DNA of 64,000 nt, from contig NZ_JACIBU010000001.1 of NCBI RefSeq assembly GCF_014195485.1, positions 3,162,001-3,226,000 on the forward strand, written 5' to 3'. The position numbers and the translations under genes were made by a program. Below, one piece after another: positions 5,276 through 22,454 of this stretch; the stretch's first letter is position 1, and each line of letters opens with the position of its first letter. The notes under the pieces were generated by a model. It had not been told where the DNA came from. It made no database searches and saw only the letters and a program-made list of their open reading frames with translations. Source of the DNA: Modestobacter versicolor. Lineage in GTDB: Bacteria > Actinomycetota > Actinomycetes > Mycobacteriales > Geodermatophilaceae.

Positions 5276-5337
5276 GTGGACCGAGGAAGAGCTTACCTGG
5301 CCCCTTCCCACCCCCCGACGCGGGGGGAGGCGACGTG

Positions 5338-5403
5338 CTGGAACGGCCCCGCTGCAGGGGCCCGCCGCGAGCTCGCGAGCAGTGGGGGGCAGCGGGGTCC
5401 TTC
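5338..5403. repeat. 3'-end hairpin repeat, copy A
   Basis: This 66-bp element begins 1 bp after the DUF3566 stop. Its arms CCCCGCTGC and GCAGCGGGG pair around a GC-rich centre containing the palindrome GCTCGCGAGC. It matches copy B (13048-13113) at 62 of 66 positions, in the same orientation. Confidence 0.8.
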
Positions 5404-5404
5404 G

Positions 5405-6478
5405 TCAGTCGCGCTCGGCGAGGGTGACCTCGAGGCCACCGACGAGGTCCGAGCAGAGGTTGTAGACGAACGCGCTGACAGTCGACAGCGCCGTCAGCAG
5501 CACGATGTTCACCGCGCCGATGACCGCGGCGCCGCCGAGCACGATCTTGGCGTTGATGACGTCACCGGTGGTGGCCTCCTCGCCCGACGAGCTGCCCAGC
5601 TGCCCGATCAGGTCGTTGAGGGTGTCGAAGACGCCGAGCTGGCCCAGCACGCCGTAGAGGATTCCGACGGCGACCATCCACACGCAGAAGAGCGCGATGG
5701 ACAGCACCAGCGAGATCTTCAGCGCCGACCAGGTGTCGATGTGCCGGAGCTGCAGGCGGGCCCGCCGCGGGCCCTTCCCGGCGCCGCGCACCTTGCCCGG
5801 GCGGGCGGCGGCGTCCGCCGCGGGGCGGGCACCGGCCGCCGTGCGGGACCCGGCCTCGGTGGCCCGGGCCGCCGCGGGGCGGGACGGCTGGTCGGCCGGG
5901 CGCGCGCCGGCCGGGGGGAGGGTGACCGCCTGGGTCTGGTCGACGGGCAGCTGGCCGGCCTCCGCCGCGCTGCTGCGCGACCCCACGGCCCGGCCGACCC
6001 CGGTGGAGGGCGGCACGGGCGGAGCGGGGCTGGTGACCGGGCGGGCGCCGTCGTCGGCCGGGCGGGACGCCGGCCGGGGGGCCGCGCCGGTGGGACCGAG
6101 GGGGGTGACCGGGTGCGCTGCCGGCGGCGCCGGGGCGGCGGCCGCCTGGGTCATCTCGGCCGGGGACGGCTCGGCAGCCTTGGTCGGGGCGGCCTTGGCC
6201 ACCACCGGCTTGCCGGCGGCGGGCTGGACGTCCGCGACGTCCGCGGTCGGCTCGGCTGCTGCCCGGGACGACGAGCGCTTCCCGGCCGGCGCCGGCTCGG
6301 CCGCCGCCGGGGTGGCACCCGCTCCGGACGGCGTGCCGCGGGGGGCGGTCGCAGAACCGCTGGCCGTGGCCCCGGCGCCCGCGTCGTCCACCGGGCCGGC
6401 GGCCTCCGGCACCCCGTCGGACGTCCCGGACCCGTCACGGGTCCCGGTACGCACCGAACTGCGCGCCCGGTCGCTCAT
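5405..6478 (-). CDS. DUF3566 domain-containing membrane protein
   Basis: The first two thirds of this 357-residue protein are low-complexity Ala/Pro/Gly/Thr. The C-terminal 120 residues are the DUF3566 domain: an RRARLQLRHIDTWSALKIS entry, a first membrane helix (SLVLSIALFCVWMVAVGIL), a loop, and a second helix. DUF3566 proteins sit directly downstream of gyrA in most actinobacteria (Rv0007 in Mycobacterium tuberculosis). Their function is unknown. Hairpin repeat A lies immediately after the stop. Confidence 0.9.
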   Translation of the reverse strand: MSDRARSSVRTGTRDGSGTSDGVPEAAGPVDDAGAGATASGSATAPRGTPSGAGATPAAAEPAPAGKRSSSRAAAEPTADVADVQPAAGKPVVAKAAPTKAAEPSPAEMTQAAAAPAPPAAHPVTPLGPTGAAPRPASRPADDGARPVTSPAPPVPPSTGVGRAVGSRSSAAEAGQLPVDQTQAVTLPPAGARPADQPSRPAAARATEAGSRTAAGARPAADAAARPGKVRGAGKGPRRARLQLRHIDTWSALKISLVLSIALFCVWMVAVGILYGVLGQLGVFDTLNDLIGQLGSSSGEEATTGDVINAKIVLGGAAVIGAVNIVLLTALSTVSAFVYNLCSDLVGGLEVTLAERD

Positions 6479-6634
6479 CCCAGTCTCCTGTCCCCCAGCG
6501 GCCCTCGCCGCGTCGCTGCACCCACCGGACCGCCGTCGCTCGAGGCGACGGGGGTCCGGTCACTGCCGTGATCGTCGCGCAGACCCGGGCGGGGACGGCG
6601 TCGTCCGCTGCCCTGGTCTGGCATCCGCCCCACC

Positions 6635-9103
<2,469 letters not shown>

Positions 9104-9142
9104 GTCTGGTTCTCCACAAGTCGATGCACAGCGGTGGGTAAC

Positions 9143-9199
9143 GGACCCCCGTGCCCCCCACCGCTCGCGAACTCGCGGCGGGCCCCGGCACGGGGGCCG
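9143..9199. repeat. 3'-end hairpin repeat, copy C
   Basis: A 57-bp element lies in the gyrB-gyrA gap, 25 bp after the gyrB stop. It shares the core GCTCGCGA, then CTCGCGGCGGGCCCC, with copy A but in inverted orientation. The stem is changed on both sides (CCCCCGTGCC with GGCACGGGGG), so pairing is kept. Confidence 0.75.
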
Positions 9200-9224
9200 C
9201 CGGGCGGGGGGCGCGGAGTCCCTC

Positions 9225-11525
<2,301 letters not shown>

Positions 11526-12941
11526 TCAGTTGACCGGGCCGCCCGAGGTGAAGCGCTCCGGGTCGAGCGCCGGGACGCCGGGACCGGTCCGCCGGTTCAC
11601 CAGCACCGTGACCACCCACAGCAGGACGCCGATCGCCAGCAGGATGCCCGCGATGCGGTACTGCTCGGAGGGCCGGCCGGCCCACGGCGTGGCGAGGAAC
11701 GCGCAGGCCAGCGCCCCGACCACCGGCAGCACCGTGGGGGTGCGGAAGTGGTCGGCGTCGACGGGGTCGCGGCGCAGCACCAGCACCGCGGCGTTCACGA
11801 CGGTGAAGACCAACAGCAGCAGGAGCGCGGTCGTGCCGCCGAGTGCGGGGACCGCGCCGACGAAGGTGATCAGCCCGAAGGCCAGCGCGGTGGTGAACAG
11901 GATCGCCGTCGTCGGGGTGCGCCGCTTCGGGTGCACCCGGCCCAGCAGCGGCGGCAGCACGTGCTGGTTGCTCATGCCGTAGACCAGCCGGCTGGCCATC
12001 AGCATGTTGATCAGCGCCGAGTTGGCGACGGCGAACATGGTGATGACGCCGAACAGGCCGATCGGGAAGCCGGGGGCGCCGGCCTCGACCACCTGGAGCA
12101 GCGGGGTGTCGCCCTGGCTGAGCGCGTCGGCGGGCACCAGCGCGATCGCCGAGATGGACACGAGCACGTAGATGAGGCCGGTGGCCAGCAGCCCGGCCAG
12201 CAGCACCTTGGGGAAGATCCGCCGCGGCTCCTTGCACTCCTCGGCCATGTTGACCGAGTCCTCGAAGCCGACCATCGCGAAGAACGCCAGGCCGGTGGCG
12301 GCGATGACCCCGCCGACCAGCGAGCGCTCACCGGTCTCGAACTCCGTCACCCGGGAGAAGTCGCCCTCCCCGCCGCCCAGCGCCCAGACGCCGACCCCGA
12401 TGACGATCAGCAGGCCGGTGAGCTCGACGCAGGTGAGCACCACGTTGGCCTTGACGCTCTCGCCGACGCCGCGGTGGTTGACCAGCGCGACCAGGGCCAT
12501 GAAGCCCAGCGCGATCAGCGTGATGCCGATGCCCTCGGAGAAGCCGAGGCCGAGCACCTCCGCGGCGTTGGCGCTGAACGCCCGGGCCGCGGTGGACGCC
12601 GAGGTGATGCCCGAGCTCATCACGGTGAAGGCGACCAGGAACGTGACGAAGTGGATGCCGAAGGCCTTGTGCGTGTACAGCGCCGCGCCCGCGGCCTGCG
12701 GGTACTTGGTGACCAGCTCCAGGTAGCTGAACGCCGTCACCAGGGCCACCAGGAAGGCGACCAGGAAGGGCAGCCAGACGACGCCGCCGACCTGCGCGGC
12801 CACCTGGCCGGTCAGCGCGTAGATGCCGGTGCCCAGGATGTCGCCGACGATGAAGAGCAGCAGCAGCCCCGGGCCCATCACCCGCTTGAGGCTCGGCTGG
12901 CCGGTGCTGGACTCCTCGTCGGTGCGCACGCTCTCGGCCAT
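11526..12941 (-). CDS. APC-family amino-acid permease
   Basis: The 471-residue protein has about 12 membrane helices. The N-terminal helix reads GPGLLLLFIVGDILGTGIYAL, the classic APC unwound-helix motif with GTGIY, and later there is GFEDSVNMAEECKEPRR. These proteins exchange or import amino acids or polyamines; the substrate cannot be read from sequence. ATG 12941 follows a GGGAGG ribosome site. It is a single gene upstream of which lie a parS site and hairpin repeat B. A GGCCCC/GGGGGCC hairpin just past the stop may terminate it. Confidence 0.9.
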   Translation of the reverse strand: MAESVRTDEESSTGQPSLKRVMGPGLLLLFIVGDILGTGIYALTGQVAAQVGGVVWLPFLVAFLVALVTAFSYLELVTKYPQAAGAALYTHKAFGIHFVTFLVAFTVMSSGITSASTAARAFSANAAEVLGLGFSEGIGITLIALGFMALVALVNHRGVGESVKANVVLTCVELTGLLIVIGVGVWALGGGEGDFSRVTEFETGERSLVGGVIAATGLAFFAMVGFEDSVNMAEECKEPRRIFPKVLLAGLLATGLIYVLVSISAIALVPADALSQGDTPLLQVVEAGAPGFPIGLFGVITMFAVANSALINMLMASRLVYGMSNQHVLPPLLGRVHPKRRTPTTAILFTTALAFGLITFVGAVPALGGTTALLLLLVFTVVNAAVLVLRRDPVDADHFRTPTVLPVVGALACAFLATPWAGRPSEQYRIAGILLAIGVLLWVVTVLVNRRTGPGVPALDPERFTSGGPVN

Positions 12942-13017
12942 CGCACTGCCTCCCGGGTCTGTGGTGGCAGTGATCGTGCTGCGTCCGGGTCCGGCTGTCG
13001 ACCTGAGTGACGACCAC

Positions 13018-13031
13018 GTTCCACGTGGAAC
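13018..13031. promoter_or_regulatory. parS site (intergenic, near gyrB)
   Basis: This is the perfect 14-bp palindrome GTTCCACGTGGAAC, identical to the two copies in front of parA. It differs from the widespread parS core GTTTCACGTGAAAC by one symmetric pair. It probably binds ParB about 7 kb from dnaA on the gyrase side. Confidence 0.85.
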
Positions 13032-13047
13032 GCCGGCACGTGACGGT

Positions 13048-13113
13048 CTGGAACGGCGCCGCTGCAGGGGCCCGCCGCGAGCCTGCGAGCGGTGGGGGGC
13101 AGCGGGGTCCTTC
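13048..13113. repeat. 3'-end hairpin repeat, copy B
   Basis: A 66-bp element overlaps the last bases of the ABC-exporter gene. It is nearly identical to copy A (four differences), in the same orientation and the same place relative to the upstream gene's stop codon. Confidence 0.8.
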
Positions 13114-14875
13114 AGACCAGCAGCTGGGCGGTGGCGAGCTCGCGGTACAGCGGGTCGGTGTCGACCAGCTCGGCGTGGGTGCCGACCGCGACGACCCGGC
13201 CGCCGTCCAGCACCACGATCTGGTCGCTGTCGATCACGGTGGACAGCCGGTGCGCGACGACCAGCAGCGCCCGGTCGGCGGCGGCCGCGGCCAGGGTGTC
13301 GCGCAGCAGCTGCTCGTTGCGGGCGTCGAGGCTGGCGGTCGGCTCGTCGAGCAGCAGCAGCGCGGGGCGGGACAGCAGCGACCGGGCGATGGCCAGCCGC
13401 TGCCGCTCCCCGCCGGACAGCAGCACGCCGTCGTCGCCGACGGGGACGTCGAGCCCCAGCGGCGAGCGCGCGACGACCGCGGTGAGCCCGACGTCGGCCA
13501 GCGCCTGCCACAGCTGGGCGTCGTCGGCGTCCGGGGTGGCCAGCAGCAGGTTCTCCCGCACGGTGCCGGCGAGCACCGGTGCCTCCTGCTCGACGTAGCC
13601 CATCCGGGCCCGCAGCGCCGCCCGCGGCAGCTCACGCACGTCGGTGCCGGCCCAGCGGACGGCGCCCGACGTCAGCGGGTAGAAGCCCTCCACCAGGGCG
13701 AGCACGGTCGACTTCCCGGCTCCCGACGGGCCGACCAGCGCGGTGCGGCTGCCGGCCGGCACGGTGAAGGAGACCCCGTCCAGCACCGGTGTGCCGTCCG
13801 GGTAGCCGAACCCGACGCCGTCCAGCTCGAGCAGCGGCACCGGGTCGCCGGCCCGCGGCACCCGCAGCACCGCGCCGGCGGCGGGGCGCTCGGCGACCTC
13901 GTCGTGCTCGGGGTCGAGGGCCAGCACCTCCTGCACCCGGGCCAGCGCACCGAGCCCGGTCTGCAGCTGGGTGTAGGAGCCGATCACCTGCCCCAGCGGC
14001 ATGACCAGCAGGAACAGGTACAGGATGAACGAGACCAGGTCGGCGACGGCGATCGAGCCGGTGGCGACCCGGTAGCCGCCCAGCCCGAGGACGGCGAGGA
14101 ACGCGCCCTGCACGGCGATCGAGCCGGCGGGGGAGACCAGCGCCTCCAGCCGGGCGACCTGCACGCCGGCGCGGTACGCGCGGTCGGCGCTCACGCCGAC
14201 CGTCTCGACCTCGCGCGCGGTGGCACCGCTGGCCCGGATGGTGCGCACCGCCGACAGCGCCCGCTCCACCGCGGCGCTCATCGCACCGACCTGCTCCTGG
14301 GCCTGCCGGGACAGCCCGCGCACCCGGCGGGCGGCCAGCACCGCCGTCGTCACGCCCACGCTCACCGCCGCCACGGTGACCAGCAGCAGCCAGACGTCGA
14401 CCAGGGCCATCGCCACCAGCGCCCCGACGCCGACGACCAGCGAGCCGGCCAGGTCGACCACCCCGCTGGTGACCGTGGCGCGCAGCAGGGTGGTGTCCGA
14501 GCCGACCCGGGACATCAGGTCCCCGGTCCGCCGCCGGTCGTACTCGGCGACCGGCAGCCGGAGCAGCCGGTCGGTGAGCAGCCGGCGGGTGCTGAGCACC
14601 ACGCCCTCCGCCGTCCGCTGGAGCAGGTACTGCTGGCCGGCGCCGAGGAACGCGCCGGCGACCAGGACGACGACGAGCAGCAGCACCCCGGGCAGGACGG
14701 CCCCACCGGAGCCCACCGCGCCGATCACCCGGCCCACGAGCGCGGGCTGCGCCAGCGCGGCGGCGGCGGAGACCAGGGAGAGGAGCGCGGCCGCGGCGAG
14801 CGCCCGGCGGTGCGGGCGCAGCAGCGGCAGCAGCTCCCGCAGCCCCGCCGACGGCGCCTCGGCCTCGGTGCTCAG
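13112..14875 (-). CDS. ABC exporter, fused membrane and ATPase domains (probable CTG start)
   Basis: A six-helix type-IV membrane domain is followed by an ATPase: Walker A GPSGAGKS (about 382-389), signature LSGGERQ (486-492), Walker B LLLLDEP (506-512) and the switch VVAHRLS. The first GTG, at 14737, would delete membrane helix 1. In frame upstream, with no stop, lies LRELLPLLRPHRRALA and then a hydrophobic helix ending ALAQPALVGRVI, which is normal exporter sequence. No ATG, GTG or TTG is available there. CTG 14875 (LSTEAEAPSAG) with AGG 6 nt upstream is the best start (587 residues). It is a multidrug-type half transporter; the substrate is unknown. Confidence 0.88.
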   Translation of the reverse strand: MSTEAEAPSAGLRELLPLLRPHRRALAAAALLSLVSAAAALAQPALVGRVIGAVGSGGAVLPGVLLLVVVLVAGAFLGAGQQYLLQRTAEGVVLSTRRLLTDRLLRLPVAEYDRRRTGDLMSRVGSDTTLLRATVTSGVVDLAGSLVVGVGALVAMALVDVWLLLVTVAAVSVGVTTAVLAARRVRGLSRQAQEQVGAMSAAVERALSAVRTIRASGATAREVETVGVSADRAYRAGVQVARLEALVSPAGSIAVQGAFLAVLGLGGYRVATGSIAVADLVSFILYLFLLVMPLGQVIGSYTQLQTGLGALARVQEVLALDPEHDEVAERPAAGAVLRVPRAGDPVPLLELDGVGFGYPDGTPVLDGVSFTVPAGSRTALVGPSGAGKSTVLALVEGFYPLTSGAVRWAGTDVRELPRAALRARMGYVEQEAPVLAGTVRENLLLATPDADDAQLWQALADVGLTAVVARSPLGLDVPVGDDGVLLSGGERQRLAIARSLLSRPALLLLDEPTASLDARNEQLLRDTLAAAAADRALLVVAHRLSTVIDSDQIVVLDGGRVVAVGTHAELVDTDPLYRELATAQLLV

Positions 14876-14897
14876 GACGTGCCTGCCCGGCGGCCGG

Positions 14898-15926
14898 TCA
14901 GGGCGCCGCGGCCAGCGCGGCGACCACCCCGGCCAGCAGCCGGGCGTGGTGCTCGACCAGCTGCGGCCGGTTGCCGTCGGGCCGGATCGCGGCGACGAAG
15001 CCCGCGGCCGACCACAGCTCGTCGCCGTCGTCGGTGCCCAGCAGCGACTGGCGGACCACCGGGTCCTCGACCAGCCGGCGCACCTGCGGTCCGTCCTCGG
15101 CGGCCAGCAGCACCCAGCGGCGGTCGAACTCCGGGTCCGGGCTCGGGATCTGCAGCAGCCCGCCGGTGCCGTGCCGCCACATCCGCGCCGGGGAGAGCCG
15201 GAAGCCGGGCACCGCCCCGAGCACCGGGGCGGCGGTGATCGCGTGCGTGCTGAGCCAGGAGCGGCCCATCGGGGAGGCGACGTCGAAGGCGACCAGCTCC
15301 AGGCCGTTGCCGCGGCCGCGCATCACCCGGCTCGGGCGGTCCTCCTTGCCCGGCCGGACCGGTGCGCTCTGCAGCAGCGGCAGCAGCGCCTCGTCCTCGG
15401 GGGCCGTGCCGTCCGACAGCACCCAGCCGACCTGCTGCGCCCAGGCCTGGGTGGAGAACGGGTCGGCCGGCGGGACGGCGATCGTCTCGTGCTCCGGCCG
15501 GATCCCGCTCCAGTCGACCGACGACTGCGACGTCGTCGGCCGCTGCTGCGGGGGCTGCTCGCCGGGCTGCTGCTCGGGACCGGCCGGCGGGCGGGAGCCG
15601 AAGAGGCCGCCCAGCCCGCGCCGCGGCGGCGCCGCCTGCTCCGGCGGGACGTCGGACTGGCGCTGCTCGGCGACCGGCGGCTGCCACGGCGCCGGGGCCT
15701 GCGCAGCGGGCGGGGCCGGCCGCTCGGGCTCCACGGCCGGCAGGTCCCAGCCCGGCGGTTGCCAGGCGTCCGGGGTGCTCGCCCCGGCCGCCGGGGGTCC
15801 GGCCGGCGGGTCGGCCGGCGGGGTGTCGCTGCCGCCGCCCAGGTGGGCCGGCTCCTGCCAGCCCGACTGCCCGTCGGCCCGGCCGTCGTCGAAGCCGTCT
15901 CCGTCGCGGTCGCGCGGGGTGCTCAT
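14898..15926 (-). CDS. Hypothetical protein, Pro-rich N-terminus with conserved C-terminal domain
   Basis: I do not recognise this 342-residue protein. Residues 1-130 are low-complexity Pro/Ala/Gln with an acidic start (RDRDGDGFDDGRADG). The C-terminal 180 residues look folded, with FDRRWVLLAAEDGPQVRRLV, then RQSLLGTDDGDELWSAAG and VEHHARLLAGVVAAL. That last block resembles the ends of actinobacterial proteins that read as membrane-associated hypotheticals, but no membrane segment is visible here. It lies between dciA and the ABC exporter on the same strand, with short gaps, so co-transcription with either is possible. Confidence 0.7.
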   Translation of the reverse strand: MSTPRDRDGDGFDDGRADGQSGWQEPAHLGGGSDTPPADPPAGPPAAGASTPDAWQPPGWDLPAVEPERPAPPAAQAPAPWQPPVAEQRQSDVPPEQAAPPRRGLGGLFGSRPPAGPEQQPGEQPPQQRPTTSQSSVDWSGIRPEHETIAVPPADPFSTQAWAQQVGWVLSDGTAPEDEALLPLLQSAPVRPGKEDRPSRVMRGRGNGLELVAFDVASPMGRSWLSTHAITAAPVLGAVPGFRLSPARMWRHGTGGLLQIPSPDPEFDRRWVLLAAEDGPQVRRLVEDPVVRQSLLGTDDGDELWSAAGFVAAIRPDGNRPQLVEHHARLLAGVVAALAAAP

Positions 15927-15961
15927 CGCCCGGTGCTCCTCATCGTCCTGTCGCTGCTCGG

Positions 15962-16462
15962 TCAGCCGTAGGTGTCGCGCGGTCCGCGGCCGCGGACCGT
16001 GCGCGGGCCCTTCTTCCAGCTGGGGGCCGTCGGACCGACAACGCGCAGCTTGGTCACGACGTCCCCGCCCACCCCGGCGCGCAGCCGGCCCAGGATGCTC
16101 GGTGCCAGCAGCCGCAGCTGGGTGGCCCAGGCCGTGGACTCGGCGACGACCAGCAGCTCGCCCTCGTTGAGCGACTCCGGCCGGCAGTGCGCGGCGATGT
16201 CCGGGCCGACCAGGGTGTCCCAGCGGCCGAAGACCGCGCCCACCTTGGTCCGCGCCGTCCAGTCCTGCTGGGTGACCAGGGCGTCGACCAGCGACCCGAA
16301 CAGCTGCGGGTCGTCGGCGCCGGGGCCCGGCCCGGTCCAGCGGCGGCGCGGGCCGGCGACCCGGCGCCGGGTGGGCTGCGGCCGGGCAGCCGACGCGGCC
16401 CGGGCGGCCTCCAGCGCCGCTCGGGCGATGTCCGAGGGTCGAGCCGGCCGTTCCTCAGCCAC
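15962..16462 (-). CDS. dciA: DciA-type helicase-loading protein (DUF721)
   Basis: The 166-residue product has a basic disordered N-terminus and a DUF721 domain from about residue 50: [18 protein letters not shown], then [21 protein letters not shown] and a beta strand [18 protein letters not shown]. DciA is the ancestral bacterial loader of the replicative helicase DnaB. GTG 16462 overlaps the recF end by eight bases (GTGGCTGA), which implies translational coupling. The gene follows recF here as in other actinobacteria. Its partner dnaB is in this same window at 56.3 kb. Confidence 0.9.
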
Positions 16463-17648
16463 CGTCCACCTCCGTGCTCCCGTCGTCCCCGTCGCCGCCG
16501 TCGCGGGGCAGGACCGCCAGCGTCCCAGCTGCGACCTGCACGCGGGTGCCGCGCAACGCCGCGGGGACGTCCTCAGCGACGGCGGCGGTGATCAGGGTCT
16601 GCTCGGCGCTGCCGGCGACCTCGGCCAGCGCCGAGCGGCGGCCGGCGTCCAGCTCGGCGAAGACGTCGTCCAGCACCAGGATCGGGTCGTCGCCCTCGTT
16701 GCGGAGCAGCGCGAAGCAGGCCAGCTTCACCGCGAGGGCGAACGACCACGACTCCCCGTGGCTGGCGTAGCCCTTGGCCGGGGCCGGCCCCAGGTGCAGC
16801 ACGAGGTCGTCGCGGTGCGGGCCGACCAGGGTGATCCCGCGGTCGACCTCGTCCTTGCGCCGCTCGGCGACCCGGTCGCGCAGCGCGGCGGCCAGCTCGG
16901 CCGCACCGGGCAGCGGCCGGGCCGGGTCGATCGGCGCGCCGTCACCGGCCAGCGGCACCGTCGAGCTGTAGCCGAGCGCCGCCCGGTCCGCGCCGGGGCC
17001 GGCGACCGAGGCGTAGGAGTCCGCGACGTAGGGCGCGAGGTCGGCGACCAGCCGCAGCCGGGCCTCGAGCAGCTGCCCGCCGAGCTCGGTGAGGTGGCCG
17101 TCCCAGACGTCCAGCGTGGCCAGCGCGTTGCCGCGGGCCAGCTTCGCCGTCTTGAGCAGGGCGTTGCGCTGCTTGAGCACCCGGTCGTAGTCGCTGCGCA
17201 CCCCGGCCAGCCGCGGCGTGCGGCTGACCAGCAGGTCGTCGAGGAACCGCCGGCGCTCGGCCGGGTCGCCGCGCACCAGGGCGAGGTCCTCGGGGGCGAA
17301 GAGCACGGTCTTCACCAGCCCGAGCAGCTCGCGCGGCCGGGTCAGCGGCGCCCGGTTCACCCGCACCCGGTTGGCCCGGCCGGGGTTGATCTCCACCTCG
17401 ACGAGCAGCTCGCGCTCGTCCTTGCGCAGCGCGGCCCGCACCACGGCCTGGGTCGCGCCGTGGCGCACCAGCGGGGCGTCCGCGGAGACCCGGTGGCTGC
17501 CCAGCGTGGCAAGGTAGCCGACCGCCTCGACCAGGTTGGTCTTGCCCTGCCCGTTGCGGCCGACCAGCACCGTCGGGCCGGGCGTCAGCGCCAGGTCGGC
17601 CAGCTCCCAGCTGCGGAACTGGCCGACCTGCAGGTGCCGGAGGTACAC
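16455..17648 (-). CDS. recF: DNA replication and repair protein RecF
   Basis: The 397-residue product is an SMC-like ATPase with Walker [10 protein letters not shown] (about 33-41), the RecF block [22 protein letters not shown], signature region [15 protein letters not shown] and Walker [14 protein letters not shown]. RecF loads RecA at gaps with RecO and RecR. GTG 17648 begins [14 protein letters not shown], the conserved family start. The gene is 17 bp after gnd in the dnaN-gnd-recF-dciA series. Confidence 0.96.
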
Positions 17649-17665
17649 CGCTCAGCGCGCCGGCG

Positions 17666-18598
17666 TCATGCGGGCTTCTCGGCCTCCTGGGCCTGGATGG
17701 CGTGCACGGCGTGACCGCCGAACTGGTTCCGCAGCGCGGCGACGGCCTTCATCGTCGGGGAGTCGTCCTGGCGGGAGACGAACCGGGCGAACAGCGAGGC
17801 GGAGATCGCCGGCATCGGGACGGCGTTGTCGATGGCCGCCTCGACGGTCCACCGGCCCTCGCCGGAGTCCTCGGCGTAGCCGGTGATCCGGTCCAGGCCC
17901 GGGTCCTCCTGCAGCGCGCGGACCAGCAGGTCCAGCAGCCAGGAGCGGATGACGGTGCCCTGGGTCCAGGAGGCGACGACGCCGGGGACGTCCTCGATGA
18001 GGTCGACCTTCTCGAGCAGCTCGTAGCCCTCGCCGTAGGCCTGCATCATCGCGTACTCGATGCCGTTGTGGACCATCTTGGCGAAGTGGCCGGCGCCGAC
18101 CGGGCCGGCGTGCACGAAGCCGGCGCCGGGGTCGGCCGGGCTGCCCTCGGCCACCTCGGCCGGCGGCTTGAGCGCGTCGAACACCGGCTGGACCTTGGCG
18201 ACGTCCTCGGCGGACCCGCCGACCATCAGCGCGTAGCCGTTCTGCAGGCCCCACACGCCGCCGGAGACGCCGGCGTCGACGTAGCCGATGCCCTTGGCGG
18301 CCAGCTCGTCGGCGTGGACCTTGTCGTCGGTGTACTTGGAGTTGCCGCCGTCGACGACCACGTCGCCGGGGCTCAGCAGCTCGCCCAGCTCCCGCACGGT
18401 GGCCCGGGTCGGGTCGCCCGCGGGCACCATCACCCACACCACGCGGGGGGCCTGCAGCGCCTCGACGAGCCCCTGCAGGCTGTCGACGTCCCGCTTGCCC
18501 GGCGAGTGGTCGTAGCCGACCACCTCGTGCCCGGCGCGGCGGATCCGCTCGGCCATGTTGCCGCCCATCTTGCCCAGCCCGACCAGCCCCAGCTGCAC
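17666..18598 (-). CDS. gnd: 6-phosphogluconate dehydrogenase, decarboxylating (short form)
   Basis: The 310-residue product is the short NAD-preferring type. Rossmann start MQLGLVGLGKMGGNMA, the substrate loop GVSGGVWGLQNGYALMVGG and the catalytic block HFAKMVHNGIEYAMMQAYGEG are present. It converts 6-phosphogluconate to ribulose-5-phosphate. GTG 18598 is chosen because it directly begins the Rossmann strand and has a GGGAG site upstream; the open frame runs 57 codons further without conservation. Its place between dnaN and recF is an actinobacterial trait. Confidence 0.94.
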   Translation of the reverse strand: MQLGLVGLGKMGGNMAERIRRAGHEVVGYDHSPGKRDVDSLQGLVEALQAPRVVWVMVPAGDPTRATVRELGELLSPGDVVVDGGNSKYTDDKVHADELAAKGIGYVDAGVSGGVWGLQNGYALMVGGSAEDVAKVQPVFDALKPPAEVAEGSPADPGAGFVHAGPVGAGHFAKMVHNGIEYAMMQAYGEGYELLEKVDLIEDVPGVVASWTQGTVIRSWLLDLLVRALQEDPGLDRITGYAEDSGEGRWTVEAAIDNAVPMPAISASLFARFVSRQDDSPTMKAVAALRNQFGGHAVHAIQAQEAEKPA

Positions 18599-18755
18599 GT
18601 CCGCTCCCTCAGCTCTCGATGTCTCGCTCGTGTGCCGCGGTCGTCCGCGGCAGGTCTCGGTGGGGGCGCGCTGCGCTGCGGGGCCCCGGTGGACCCGGTT
18701 CCCCGGGCCACTCGCCGGCCACCATCGTGCTCGCCCGGTTCTCGACCCGCACCAT

Positions 18756-18803
18756 CGGCCCCGCTGCAAGGGCCCGCGCCGAGCCCGGTGACGTGCTGGG
18801 TCC
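18756..18803. repeat. 3'-end hairpin repeat, degenerate copy D
   Basis: A 48-bp element sits 4 bp after the dnaN stop. CGGCCCCGCTGCA and GGGCCCGC match copy A, but the right arm is eroded and shortened, so the stem is only partly formed. Confidence 0.55.
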
Positions 18804-18807
18804 TCGA

Positions 18808-19968
18808 TCAGCCGGGGAGGCGCACCGGCATGATCAGGTAGCGGTAGCTGCCGGCCCGCTCGGCCGGCCGTCCGCCGTCGCCCTCGTCACCCGAGGGCTC
18901 CTCGACGCCGGAGAGCACCGCGGGCTTGAGCGCGGTGGTGAAGTCCATCCGGGCCCGGTCGGTGTGCACCGCGGCCAGCCCGTCGAGCAGGAACGTCGGG
19001 TTGAAGCCGATGGTCAGCGGGTCGCCGTCGAACTCGACGTCGCAGCGCTCCTCCGCCTGGCCCTCGTCGTCGGTGCCACCGGCGCGCAGCGTCACCTGGC
19101 CGGAGGTGAACTCGCAGCGCAGCGGGGTGCCCCGCTCGGCGACCAGGGCCACGCGCTTGGCGGCGTCGGTGAACAGGCCCACCGGCAGCGTGGCGAAGGA
19201 CGAGGACTCGCTCGGCATGATCGCGCGGTACTTGACGAACTCGGCGTCCAGCAGCCGGGTGGTGGTCTGCCGGTCCTTGCCGGACAGCCCCAGGATCCCC
19301 TCGCCCGAGCCGCCCGACGAGAGCGACAGCGTCACCTCGGGGCCGCTGGTCAGCGTCTTGGCGGCGTCGGCCAGCGTGCGGGCCGGCACCAGGACGGCGG
19401 CGGACAGGCCCGGGGTCTCCGGGCGCCAGGCGAACTCGCGGACGGCGAGCCGGTAGCGGTCGGTGGCGGCCAGGGTGACCAGGTCGTCCTCGATCTCCAG
19501 CCGGACGCCGGTGAGCATCGGCAGGGTGTCGTCGCGCCCGGCGGCGACCGCGACCTGGCTGACCGCCTCGGCGAACGCGTCGCTGTCGACGGTGCCGGCG
19601 GTGGAGGGCAGCGAGGGCAGCGACGGGTAGTCCTCGACCGGCAGCGTCGGCAGGCTGAACTTGGCGTTTCCGCAGCTGATCGCCAGCCGGGCGCCCTCGG
19701 CGACGACGTCGACCGGGTGCGGCGGCAGGGCCCGGGTGATCTCGGCGAGCAGGCGTCCGGGCACCAGCGTCCGGCCGCTCTCGGTCGACTGGACGTCGAC
19801 CTCCGAGCGCGCCGACACCTCGTAGTCGAAGCCGGACACCGACAGCTGGTTGCCCTCGACCTCCAGCAGGATCCCGGCGAGCACCGGCACCGACGGCCGC
19901 GGCGGCAGGCTGCGCGCCGTCCACGCCACGGCCTCGGCGAGCACCTCACGTGCCACCCGGAACTTCAT
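18808..19968 (-). CDS. dnaN: DNA polymerase III beta sliding clamp
   Basis: The 386-residue product has three clamp domains. It starts MKFRVAREVLAEAVAWTARS and ends with the partner-binding region SYRYLIMPVRLPG. The clamp holds polymerase and repair enzymes on DNA. ATG 19968 has GGTGGG upstream; the open frame extends 43 codons further but without family similarity. It is separated from dnaA by about 630 bp containing the probable oriC, the normal actinobacterial arrangement. Confidence 0.97.
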   Translation of the reverse strand: MKFRVAREVLAEAVAWTARSLPPRPSVPVLAGILLEVEGNQLSVSGFDYEVSARSEVDVQSTESGRTLVPGRLLAEITRALPPHPVDVVAEGARLAISCGNAKFSLPTLPVEDYPSLPSLPSTAGTVDSDAFAEAVSQVAVAAGRDDTLPMLTGVRLEIEDDLVTLAATDRYRLAVREFAWRPETPGLSAAVLVPARTLADAAKTLTSGPEVTLSLSSGGSGEGILGLSGKDRQTTTRLLDAEFVKYRAIMPSESSSFATLPVGLFTDAAKRVALVAERGTPLRCEFTSGQVTLRAGGTDDEGQAEERCDVEFDGDPLTIGFNPTFLLDGLAAVHTDRARMDFTTALKPAVLSGVEEPSGDEGDGGRPAERAGSYRYLIMPVRLPG

Positions 19969-20597
19969 CTCGTACCCACCCTGTGCTCGTCTGCGCCGGC
20001 TCGTCCGGTGCGGTGTGCGGCGCCCATCCTCTCCCGAGGGACCCCCTGCCTGACCAGCCCCATCTGCGAGAGCACTGCTCTGTCGCAGCGTCCCCACCCA
20101 GAGTGTGGTTCGAGAACACCCTGGGAGAAGTACTTCATCTTCCTCATCACGGCTGTGGGTTCTGGGGAACGGACCACTTCCTGCAGGTCAGTCCCCGGAT
20201 GGCCCTGTTGGCCCGCTGTGGGCCGCTGACCCTCCGCCTGTGTCGACACGTGGACAACTCGACCGCCGTGCACCGTCACCGTGCTGTCTCCACCTGCCAT
20301 CCCCCCTCCACTCGCAGGCTCGTCCCCACACCGTGCGCAGCGAGCCGGTCGTCCACCGTCATCGGTGGGCGACTTGTGGACACGGCGGGGACGGCGGTGG
20401 GCGGACGCGGGCCCGGGGCCTGCGCCGTCCCGTCGACGTGCGGCTGAGCTGCCGGTCGGCCCTGCGGACAGCCGCACGGACCGGTAGTCCCCAACCTGTG
20501 CACAGAACTGGGGACAAGGCGACAATCGAGGGACCCCGTCGCCCGCCCACCAATTGCGCGCCCGCGGCCGGCCCCTGCGGCGGGGGCCGAGGCGGAC
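19969..20597. other. oriC: Probable chromosomal origin (oriC), dnaN-dnaA gap
   Basis: This 629-bp gap has no credible gene. DnaA-box-like 9-mers (one mismatch to TTGTCCACA) are TTGTCCACG at 20249-20257, GTGTCCACA at 20377-20385 and TTGTCCCCA at 20509-20517, all on the minus strand. TGTGCACAG follows at 20497-20505. The segment about 20125-20160 (GAGAAGTACTTCATCTTCC and beyond) is the most AT-rich run I see in the window and is a candidate unwinding element. The position between dnaA and dnaN is where oriC lies in Streptomyces and Mycobacterium. The exact start site of replication cannot be shown from sequence. Confidence 0.75.
20531..20589. repeat. 3'-end hairpin repeat, copy E
   Basis: A 59-bp element ends 8 bp before the dnaA stop. 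It shares GGACCCCGTCGCCC and GGCCCCTGCGGCGGGGGCC layout with the other copies, oriented like copy C. Stem arms CCCCGTCGC and GCGGCGGGG still pair, with one G-U. Confidence 0.65.
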
Positions 20598-22454
20598 CTA
20601 CGACCGGGCGCGGCTCTTGATCCGGGCGGTCAGCTCGGTGACCTGCGTGTACGTCGCCCGGCGCTCGCTCATCAGCCCGGTGATCTTCTTGACCGCGTGC
20701 ATGACCGTGGTGTGGTCCTTGCCGCCGAAGGAGGCCCCGATCCGGGGCAGCGACAGCTCGGTGAGCTCCCGGCACAGGTACATGGCGATCTGCCGGGCGT
20801 TGACCAGCGTGCGGCTGCGGTTGCTGCCCTGCAGCTCCTCCATCGTCACGGAGAAGTACTCCGCGGTGGCGGCCATGATGATCGCCGCGGTGATCTGCGG
20901 GCCCTGCTCGTCGCTGATCAGGTCCTTGAGCACCAGCTCGGCCAGCGCGAGATCGACCGGCTGCTTGTTCAGGCTGGCGAAGGCGGTGACCCGGATCAGC
21001 GCGCCCTCGAGCTCGCGGATGTTGGTCTGCACCTTGCTGGCGATGAACTCGAGCACGGCGTCGGGCGCCTGCAGCCGCTCGCCCCACGCCTTCTTCCGCA
21101 GGATCGCGATGCGGGTCTCGAGGTCCGGCGCCTGGACGTCGGTGATGAGCCCCCACTCGAAGCGGGTGCGCAGCCGGTCCTCCAGCGTCGTGAGCTTCTT
21201 CGGCGCCCGGTCGGAGGTGATGACGATCTGCTTGCTGGCGTTGTGCAGCGTGTTGAAGGTGTGGAAGAACTCCTCCTGGGTGCGCTCGGCGCGCTCCAGG
21301 AACTGGATGTCGTCGATCAGCAGGAAGTCGATGTCCCGGTAGCGACGGCGGAAGTCCTCGGCCCGGCCGGAGTGCACCAGGTTGATGAACTCGTTGGTGA
21401 ACTCCTCGGTGCTCACGTACCGCACCCGCACGTTGGGGAACATCCGGGCCGCGTAGTGCCCGATGGCGTGCAGCAGGTGGGTCTTGCCCAGCCCGGAGTC
21501 GCCGTAGATGAACAGCGGGTTGTAGGCGCGCGCCGGCGCCTCGGCCACCGCGACCGCGGCCGCGTGGGCGAACCGGTTGCTGTTGCCGATGACGAAGCTG
21601 TCGAAGACGTACTTGGCGTTCAGCCCCGGGTCGAGCCCGGCCGGCCGCCGGTCGGCGAACAGCGGGACGGCGCCCTGGCCGCGCCCCTGCCGGTCGGCCG
21701 GACGTCGGTCGTCGGCGGGCCCGCGGCCGGGCTCCCCGGCGTCGTCGGACTCCCGGTCCCACGGGGCCAGCCGCGGCTGGACACCGACCCCGGCGCCGCT
21801 GTCGGACCCCGACCACTCCCCCGGGCCGTCCGCGGAGGCCTGCCCGCGGGACCAGTCGCGCCCGTCGCCGGACTCCGGCAGCCAGGCCTCGGCGCGGGCG
21901 GCGTCGGCACGCACCCCGAAGGCGCTGCGCCCATCGTCCACCCGGTCGCGATCGGCGCGGTCCTCGGCGGCCCGGTCGTGCGCGGCACGCTCGCGGGCGG
22001 CGAGCTCCTGAGAGGCGCGGTCGTGGTCGATGCGGTCCTGGGCGAGCCGGTCCTGGGCGCCGCGCTCGTCGGCCGTCCAGTCCGGGGACTGGCCGACCGG
22101 GCCCGGGCGCTCGCGGTCGAGCGGGGCCCAGCGGCGGTCGTCGGCGTCCTCGACCCGGCGCGGCGGGGTGACCGGGGCCGGGTCCGGCTGCGCCGGGACG
22201 TCCTCGAGCTGGACGGCGACGCGGATGGCGCGGCCGAACTCGGCAGACAGCGCCTCGGCCAGCTGCATCCGCATCCGCGACTCGAGCACGGTCTGGGTGA
22301 ACTCGTTCGGCGCGGCCAGCACGGCGGTGTCCTCGACCAGGCCCAGCGGGCGGGTCAGGTTCAGCAGCGCGTTCTGCTGCGGGGACAGGCTGGTGGCGAG
22401 CCGCTCGCGGATCTGGTCCCAGACCGTCGCCAGGTCGACCGTGGAGTCGGCCAT
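20598..22454 (-). CDS. dnaA: Chromosomal replication initiator DnaA
   Basis: The 618-residue product has domain I (1-85), a long linker (86-265), AAA+ domain with Walker A GDSGLGKT (318-325) and Walker B LLIDDIQ (378-384), and the DNA-binding domain with signature [14 protein letters not shown] (577-590). The linker holds a run of alternating Asp-Arg-Ala units (about 133-176, for example [15 protein letters not shown]), probably a charged helix. Long linkers also occur in Streptomyces DnaA. ATG 22454 ([12 protein letters not shown]) has AAGGGA upstream; the frame stays open for 292 codons further without meaning. DnaA binds boxes in oriC and opens it. Confidence 0.97.

Follow-up and report, generated by a model that had tools for sequence, protein, structure and literature searches.

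A stop-anchored, REP-like palindromic repeat family of Geodermatophilaceae and its candidate role as an mRNA 3'-end hairpin

Why should one and the same hairpin recur behind the genes of a bacterial origin region? The stretch of DNA in question, referred to as the window, comprises 64,000 nucleotides (contig NZ_JACIBU010000001.1, positions 3,162,001 to 3,226,000) and includes dnaA, dnaN and gyrB. A first-pass annotation, made from its letters, described a hairpin repeat 3' of five minus-strand genes, with compensatory changes in the stem, and took it for a selected structure: a terminator, an mRNA 3'-end stabilizer or a protein site in the origin domain. Our analysis points to a dispersed palindromic repeat family of Geodermatophilaceae, similar to repetitive extragenic palindromic (REP) sequences and apparently new as a family, whose copies may act as hairpins at mRNA 3' ends, adjacent to stop codons; to this reading as a whole we assign a probability of about 0.5. 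The first-pass annotation had overlooked that the repeat is a dispersed, nesting family and that it is the 5' end of the element that meets the stop codon.

The core of the element is about 60 nt long and reads GAAGGACCCC-NNN-GC-CCCCCACCGCTCGCnnGCTCGCGGCGGGCCCC-TGC-N'N'N'-GGGGCCG; about a third of the copies carry in addition a 15-nt tail, TTCCAGCACGTCACC, which extends them to 75 nt. A conserved inner hairpin around GCTCGCnnGCTCGC is flanked by a variable arm and its complementary arm. A single copy used as query gave 41 matches in its own genome (4.59 Mb, two contigs). A covariance model, R1, built from 47 aligned copies and searched against both contigs, matched at least 148 times at an expectation value (E) ≤0.01; this is a lower bound, with the best 150 candidates scored, and the 47 training copies match by construction. 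Two matches with equal scores near contig ends, G000:C1:4100551-4100625 and G000:C2:490401-490475 (G000 being this genome, C1 and C2 its contigs), are likely an assembly overlap, one place counted twice. Copies are sparse between about 0.4 and 1.0 Mb of contig C1 (1 per 200 kb in three bins, compared with 4 to 12 in all other full bins), which could mark acquired DNA, and a head-to-head pair, 11 nt apart and resembling a REP dimer, is located at G000:C1:2906329-2906488.

Based on gyrB, whose nearest named relatives are Modestobacter and Blastococcus (88%), we place the group as Geodermatophilaceae. Matches to the element were found in 46 of 56 genomes of this family, spread over 9 of 12 genera. 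In an order-wide search with stricter filters (E ≤1e-6), 17 of 121 genomes matched, 15 of them within Geodermatophilaceae; in the two matching genomes of other families the hits are at most 3 kb from a contig start and are probably contamination. Plasmids and phages gave no match to the element; two pattern hits in viral contigs were rejected, as neither is a profile match and their surrounding letters look unrelated. The location of the five window copies near dnaA, dnaN and gyrB had suggested a protein-binding site of the origin domain. With at least 148 copies on both contigs and no clustering at the origin in 200-kb bins, this explanation is refuted as an origin-specific one, and we consider it highly improbable.

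To locate the copies relative to genes, we used a codon log-odds gene caller trained on the window, by which 146 of the 148 copies could be placed. A same-strand upstream gene faces 128 of these, and 118 start between −3 and +3 nt from its stop codon, most often at +1 (64 copies). In comparison, 1.6% of random 60-nt segments in the same intergenic gaps fell at 0 to 3 nt, in a control that allows no gene overlap. The copies are hence not scattered regardless of stop codons, and the placement at gene ends described in the first-pass annotation holds. It is also oriented: among the 57 copies between convergent genes, where stop codons lie on both sides, a stop is at most 3 nt from the element's 5' end in 52 cases and from its 3' end in 9. 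Tandem gene pairs account for a further 70 copies, 65 of them anchored, and divergent pairs for 10. Anchoring is similar across quartiles of model score (31/37, 31/36, 29/36, 27/37) and shows no trend across quartiles of identity to the nearest sister copy (33/37, 23/34, 29/37, 33/38). Outside this genome, it was found for 16 of 18 copies in stretches from genus mates and for 22 of 26 in the best-hit loci, where, as in all our counts for relatives, copies less than 200 nt from a locus end are omitted.

Slow selective sorting of copies to stop codons was rejected, given the absence of an age trend across the identity quartiles. If copies inserted at random and those that end transcription were then removed, anchoring should be looser between convergent genes; yet 52 of 57 are anchored there, compared with 65 of 70 in tandem pairs. 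A fixed target word was likewise rejected: CTGAC precedes 24 of the 118 anchored copies and 1 of the 28 unanchored ones, and the register varies with the type of stop codon.

In the anchored copies, the distance between stop codon and element, modulo 3, is 1 for 75 of 88 TGA codons, 2 for all 25 TAG codons (1 for none of them) and 0 for all 5 TAA codons. The register thus depends on the stop type (TGA versus TAG at 1 mod 3, Fisher 7e-16). Given that the element starts with GA(N)GAAGG, the junctions can be read as T|GA.. and TA|G..; the stop codon and the left end of the element have letters in common. Stop usage at anchored copies (TGA 88, TAG 25, TAA 5) differs to some extent from a sampled background (470, 65, 6; Fisher 0.0017). 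In the loci that could be compared, protein ends have kept their place: the gyrB end codon is identical in 22 of 22 Geodermatophilaceae loci, whether a copy is present or absent. Read-through is seen elsewhere, in loci L256 and L261, in which the called gene continues through the copy.

The compensatory stem changes noted in the first pass are borne out strongly at the level of the family. RNAalifold proposed 16 base pairs, seven of them with double-sided changes. For a 19-pair structure, which was derived from the same 47 aligned copies used to score it, 96.9% of cells are paired (89.0% in shuffled alignments), with 58 cells showing double-sided changes (14.3 in shuffles); sliding the partner by 1 to 3 columns lowers pairing to 39-51%. 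Further, of 91 cores with a length of 60 nt, 79 have exactly complementary variable 3-nt blocks. The word in the stem shows no link to the variable columns 24-25 and 44 (mutual information, p 0.38 and 0.48), which indicates that stems have largely changed in place while still paired.

Against this background, the five copies in the window are as follows:

5329..5403, minus strand: full copy with 3' tail behind the DUF3566 gene (R1 88.2 bits, E 4.9e-18), starting 1 nt past the TGA of gene 5405-6478 (minus strand; identified by Pfam DUF3566)
9140..9214, plus strand: tail-less copy, antisense to gyrB (9225-11471, minus strand; R1 59.2 bits)
13039..13113, minus strand: full copy with 3' tail behind the ABC exporter gene (R1 82.3 bits), its first letters GA finishing the TGA stop of gene 13112-14737 (minus strand; Pfam ABC_membrane/ABC_tran)
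18756..18806, minus strand: eroded sense copy, 1 nt past the dnaN stop, under the R1 threshold and read from the letters
20528..20604, plus strand: degenerate copy, antisense to dnaA (stop at 20598; R1 34.6 bits, E 4.3e-5)

Four of the five are matched by R1, three of them strongly and the dnaA copy weakly (E 4e-5), while the dnaN copy misses the threshold of E 0.01; both the dnaA and the dnaN copy are outside the set of at least 148 matches. In the dnaN copy, GAGGACC from the 5' arm is joined directly to the tail letters CAGCACGTCACC, followed by a 3' half, and to judge from these letters it is a deletion derivative. The position 3' of five minus-strand genes is correct, but it mixes three sense copies anchored by their 5' ends with two antisense ones. 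In the sense copies, the first base of the element is at +1 (DUF3566), −2 (ABC exporter) and +1 (dnaN, with the start counted as CGA) relative to the stop; the antisense copies lie about 25 nt (gyrB) and, measured to the end of the core, about 8 nt (dnaA) past it. The outer stems pair as described in spite of changes on both sides, except for a C:C mismatch in the ABC exporter copy and a G-U pair in the dnaA copy. Folded singly, the DUF3566 copy (z −2.8) and the gyrB copy (z −3.7 and −4.5 for the two strands) are clearly better than shuffles; the ABC exporter (z −0.75), dnaN (z 0.15) and dnaA (z 0.72) copies are not. An Rfam scan of the window gave no match above the gathering score except for two tRNAs.

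Of the functions that had been proposed, a transcription terminator, perhaps one that works in both directions and belongs to the U-less "I-shaped" type of GC-rich bacteria, is suggested by the strong GC hairpin and by the number of copies between convergent (57 of 146) and divergent (10) genes. U-lacking structured ends are indeed common in Streptomyces: of 535 highly structured 3' ends in S. clavuligerus, 353 are without U, and these could represent I-shaped terminators or transcript ends left by Rho (PMC8269248). In our family, however, TTTT occurs within 20 nt of 0 of 146 copies, and the 16 nt past the core contain at most 3 T per 8-nt window. As no copy is followed by a U-tract, the element does not qualify as a canonical intrinsic terminator. 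The stem, moreover, starts 0-6 nt past the stop codon in the 118 anchored copies (GGACC was located in 107; for the other 11 its offset was assumed). This is the range in which the ribosome nearly silences a terminator in E. coli, where efficiency dropped from about 90% to below 10% for a terminator 5 bp from the stop (PMC4824070). In tandem pairs, the downstream called start follows at 15-456 nt or overlaps (4 of 70); in 19 cases it is at most 40 nt from the core, which with the 4 overlaps makes 23 of 70. Finally, a separate hairpin (CCGGTCGCG..) is found downstream of the aldo/keto reductase gene in 13 of the 21 loci listed. The short distance to the stop, the lack of TTTT and the reports from E. 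coli and Streptomyces together favor a 3'-end hairpin over a classical terminator. A terminator of any kind we regard as unlikely, although a non-canonical one is conceivable in view of the U-less ends in Streptomyces.

The same distance bears on a further possibility, that the hairpin acts as a brake at the level of translation, stalling the terminating ribosome and thereby lowering the output of the upstream gene. The spacing agrees with the rule reported for E. coli REPs, ≤15 nt from the stop, as cited in PMC12306157, where 446 of 4,072 predicted REPs are that close. In the genome studied here, however, one copy directly follows the gene of ribosomal protein L7/L12, and relatives carry sense copies after gyrB and dnaN, all places where a brake seems costly. 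We consider such a brake quite improbable.

The content of orthologous gene ends varies. Past the gyrB stop, relatives have the element in sense, the element in antisense, or other GC-rich letters that resemble different inverted repeats; past the aldo/keto reductase stop, some genus mates have the element and others a different palindrome or merely a short spacer. By our reading of the letters, locus L064 contains copies within copies at two gene ends and L061 three nested copies. Nested copies occupy the outer loop, the 5' half of which appears to be missing. The nesting and the varying content at orthologous ends indicate a copying or insertion process and not convergent evolution.

Other palindromes were noticed as well. 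A second family, of the form GAGGGCAGAA(A/G)TGGCCA(T/C)TTCTGCCCTC, is also found near stop codons, namely after the aldo/keto reductase stop in L256, L261 and L268 and after the homologue of the window gene 17666-18598 in L063 and L065. Paired intergenic palindromes such as GATCAGGTGACCTGATC in L254, L255, L259 and L267 are possibly another repeat family, and a block like CGTCCTCCGGACGACACCGCGGCCA after the DUF3566 gene in L058, L060 and L065 possibly a further one.

The copying process leads to the main rival of our reading, a purely selfish palindromic element without a host role, whose insertion prefers gene ends or whose stop-less junctions are purged, and which needs the hairpin for its own spread. 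The nested copies speak for it, as does the stop-dependent register, which looks as if the GA of the element and the stop overlap. The missing age trend also fits placement at insertion better than slow sorting, and termini of GTAG REPs are said often to provide stop codons (Di Nocera et al. 2013, PMC3733652). Against it, no mobilizer was found among the candidates looked for: the Y1 (RAYT-type) domain PF01797 was detected in 0 of 54 family genomes, compared with 5 of 14 in the control rings, and a Y1 scan of 23 genomes had its sole hit in another family. A transposon bounded by two copies was rejected as well; of 12 genes called between close pairs, 11 have a Pfam family and none is a transposase, although other transposase families were not searched genome-wide. 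These genes encode enzymes, transporters, ribosomal proteins and similar products, apart from one 53-residue frame without a family. No clean target-site duplication was seen; sites without a copy exist, but their flanks have diverged (the closest pair there is about 95% identical). In addition, sequence-specific targeting alone leaves the in-frame stop of a real gene unexplained, and the stems vary yet remain paired. On balance, we consider a purely selfish element possible but rather unlikely.

The reading we prefer, a stop-adjacent hairpin at the 3' end of mRNAs, combines spread with a role, and the stabilizer of the first pass remains the leading function by analogy with the U-less hairpin ends of Streptomyces. 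Copies would be propagated by copying or transposition and retained wherever their 5' end (GA.., GAA..) abuts a stop codon or completes one, which would leave the protein as it was. On the mRNA, a copy would fold into a two-part GC hairpin with its base 0-6 nt from the stop, held partly open by the terminating ribosome. Upon departure of the ribosome, the hairpin would close and become the 3' edge of the message, where it could block 3'-to-5' exonucleases after a downstream, probably Rho-dependent, termination. A conserved structure tied to gene ends is supported by the pairing and the stop placement; an assignment to the origin domain is not. Placement regardless of stop codons or missing covariation would, according to the first-pass annotation, have spoken against a function, and neither was observed.

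Several observations weigh against this reading. To begin with, 28 of the 146 own copies are unanchored, and in two of these, as in two copies of genus mates, the called gene extends into the copy or past it; a stop word touches 10 of the 28, some of which are perhaps ends of genes missed by the caller. Among 46 copies in the gyrB region of named relatives, no more than 25 are anchored; nested, tandem and antisense copies are common there. Secondly, the stem word is weakly linked to the loop (p 0.04) and the tail (p 0.012). Selection is one reason for paired change, but hairpin-templated repair without selection could be another; the copy at the gyrB 3' end of L093 has a 3' arm perfectly complementary to its entire 5' half, the outcome that such repair or template switching would give. 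Thirdly, neither a donor transposase nor a clean target-site duplication was found. Lastly, gene ends without the repeat do not behave as a general rule would have it. In 26 of 100 such ends the best hairpin is no more than 5 nt from the stop, compared with 20 of 100 shuffled (by a crude score), and convergent ends without the repeat show their folding excess about 6-18 nt downstream. Contact with the stop is therefore no requirement for a hairpin at a 3' end, and the precision of ±3 nt is more than exonuclease protection by itself explains. The rule that all gene-end hairpins touch the stop is unsupported for these ends, and a strong hairpin at the gyrB end of every relative is refuted: within 75 nt past the stop, 10 of 22 ends fold with z < −1.65 and 12 do not (single-letter shuffles).

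How does the family compare with known systems? REP-like repeats as such are not new in the phylum, as for three Actinomycetota genomes the RepRanger table gives predicted palindromes by the thousand (PMC12306157). The GTAG and CGTC REPs (PMC3733652) resemble our family in being dispersed intergenic palindromes between convergent and same-direction genes, close to where the upstream gene ends and at variable distance from the downstream one; CGTC REPs also have no dedicated transposase. They are, however, 20-40 bp long, compared with a core of about 60 nt, or 75 with the tail, and our family is distinguished by a bipartite stem with a conserved inner part and by the anchoring of 81% of copies within 3 nt. 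As to their tags, of the 146 copies 5 have GTAG across the left junction, 29 have CGTC where the tail would place it, and 34 begin on the left with GACG. The main text of that study never uses the word "actinobacteria". The stop-proximal REPs of E. coli share the hairpin repeat ≤15 nt from the stop, here within 3 nt in 118 of 146 copies (PMC12306157). The U-less ends of S. clavuligerus share a GC hairpin without U-tract in a GC-rich actinobacterium, but constitute a structural class of observed mRNA ends, whereas our family is one repeated sequence, identified in DNA (PMC8269248). Miniature inverted-repeat transposable elements are similarly short, repeated, non-coding and nested; in our family, neither a target duplication nor a parent transposase was found. 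Compared with known REPs, it is longer, differently tagged, far more tightly anchored and resident in genomes without the Y1 domain. Our searches of open-licence papers listed no description of it, and in the passages covered of a paper on Geodermatophilaceae "palindromic" is used solely for clustered regularly interspaced short palindromic repeats (CRISPR).

REP-like repeats have long raised the question of host function versus parasitism. In the present family, the link to stop codons is tight almost to the single nucleotide and fixed in orientation, in genomes in which the usual transposase domain was not found. This makes two questions directly testable: whether a hairpin in contact with the stop sets the 3' end of mRNAs in GC-rich actinobacteria, and by what means the hairpin comes to lie there. 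A bolder version, which we consider improbable, is a mobile "stop-plus-hairpin" module, whose left letters complete the stop, whose hairpin sets the mRNA 3' end and whose delivery in effect sees stop codons. If true, host genes would have their ends rewritten by a mobile element that leaves their proteins as they are.

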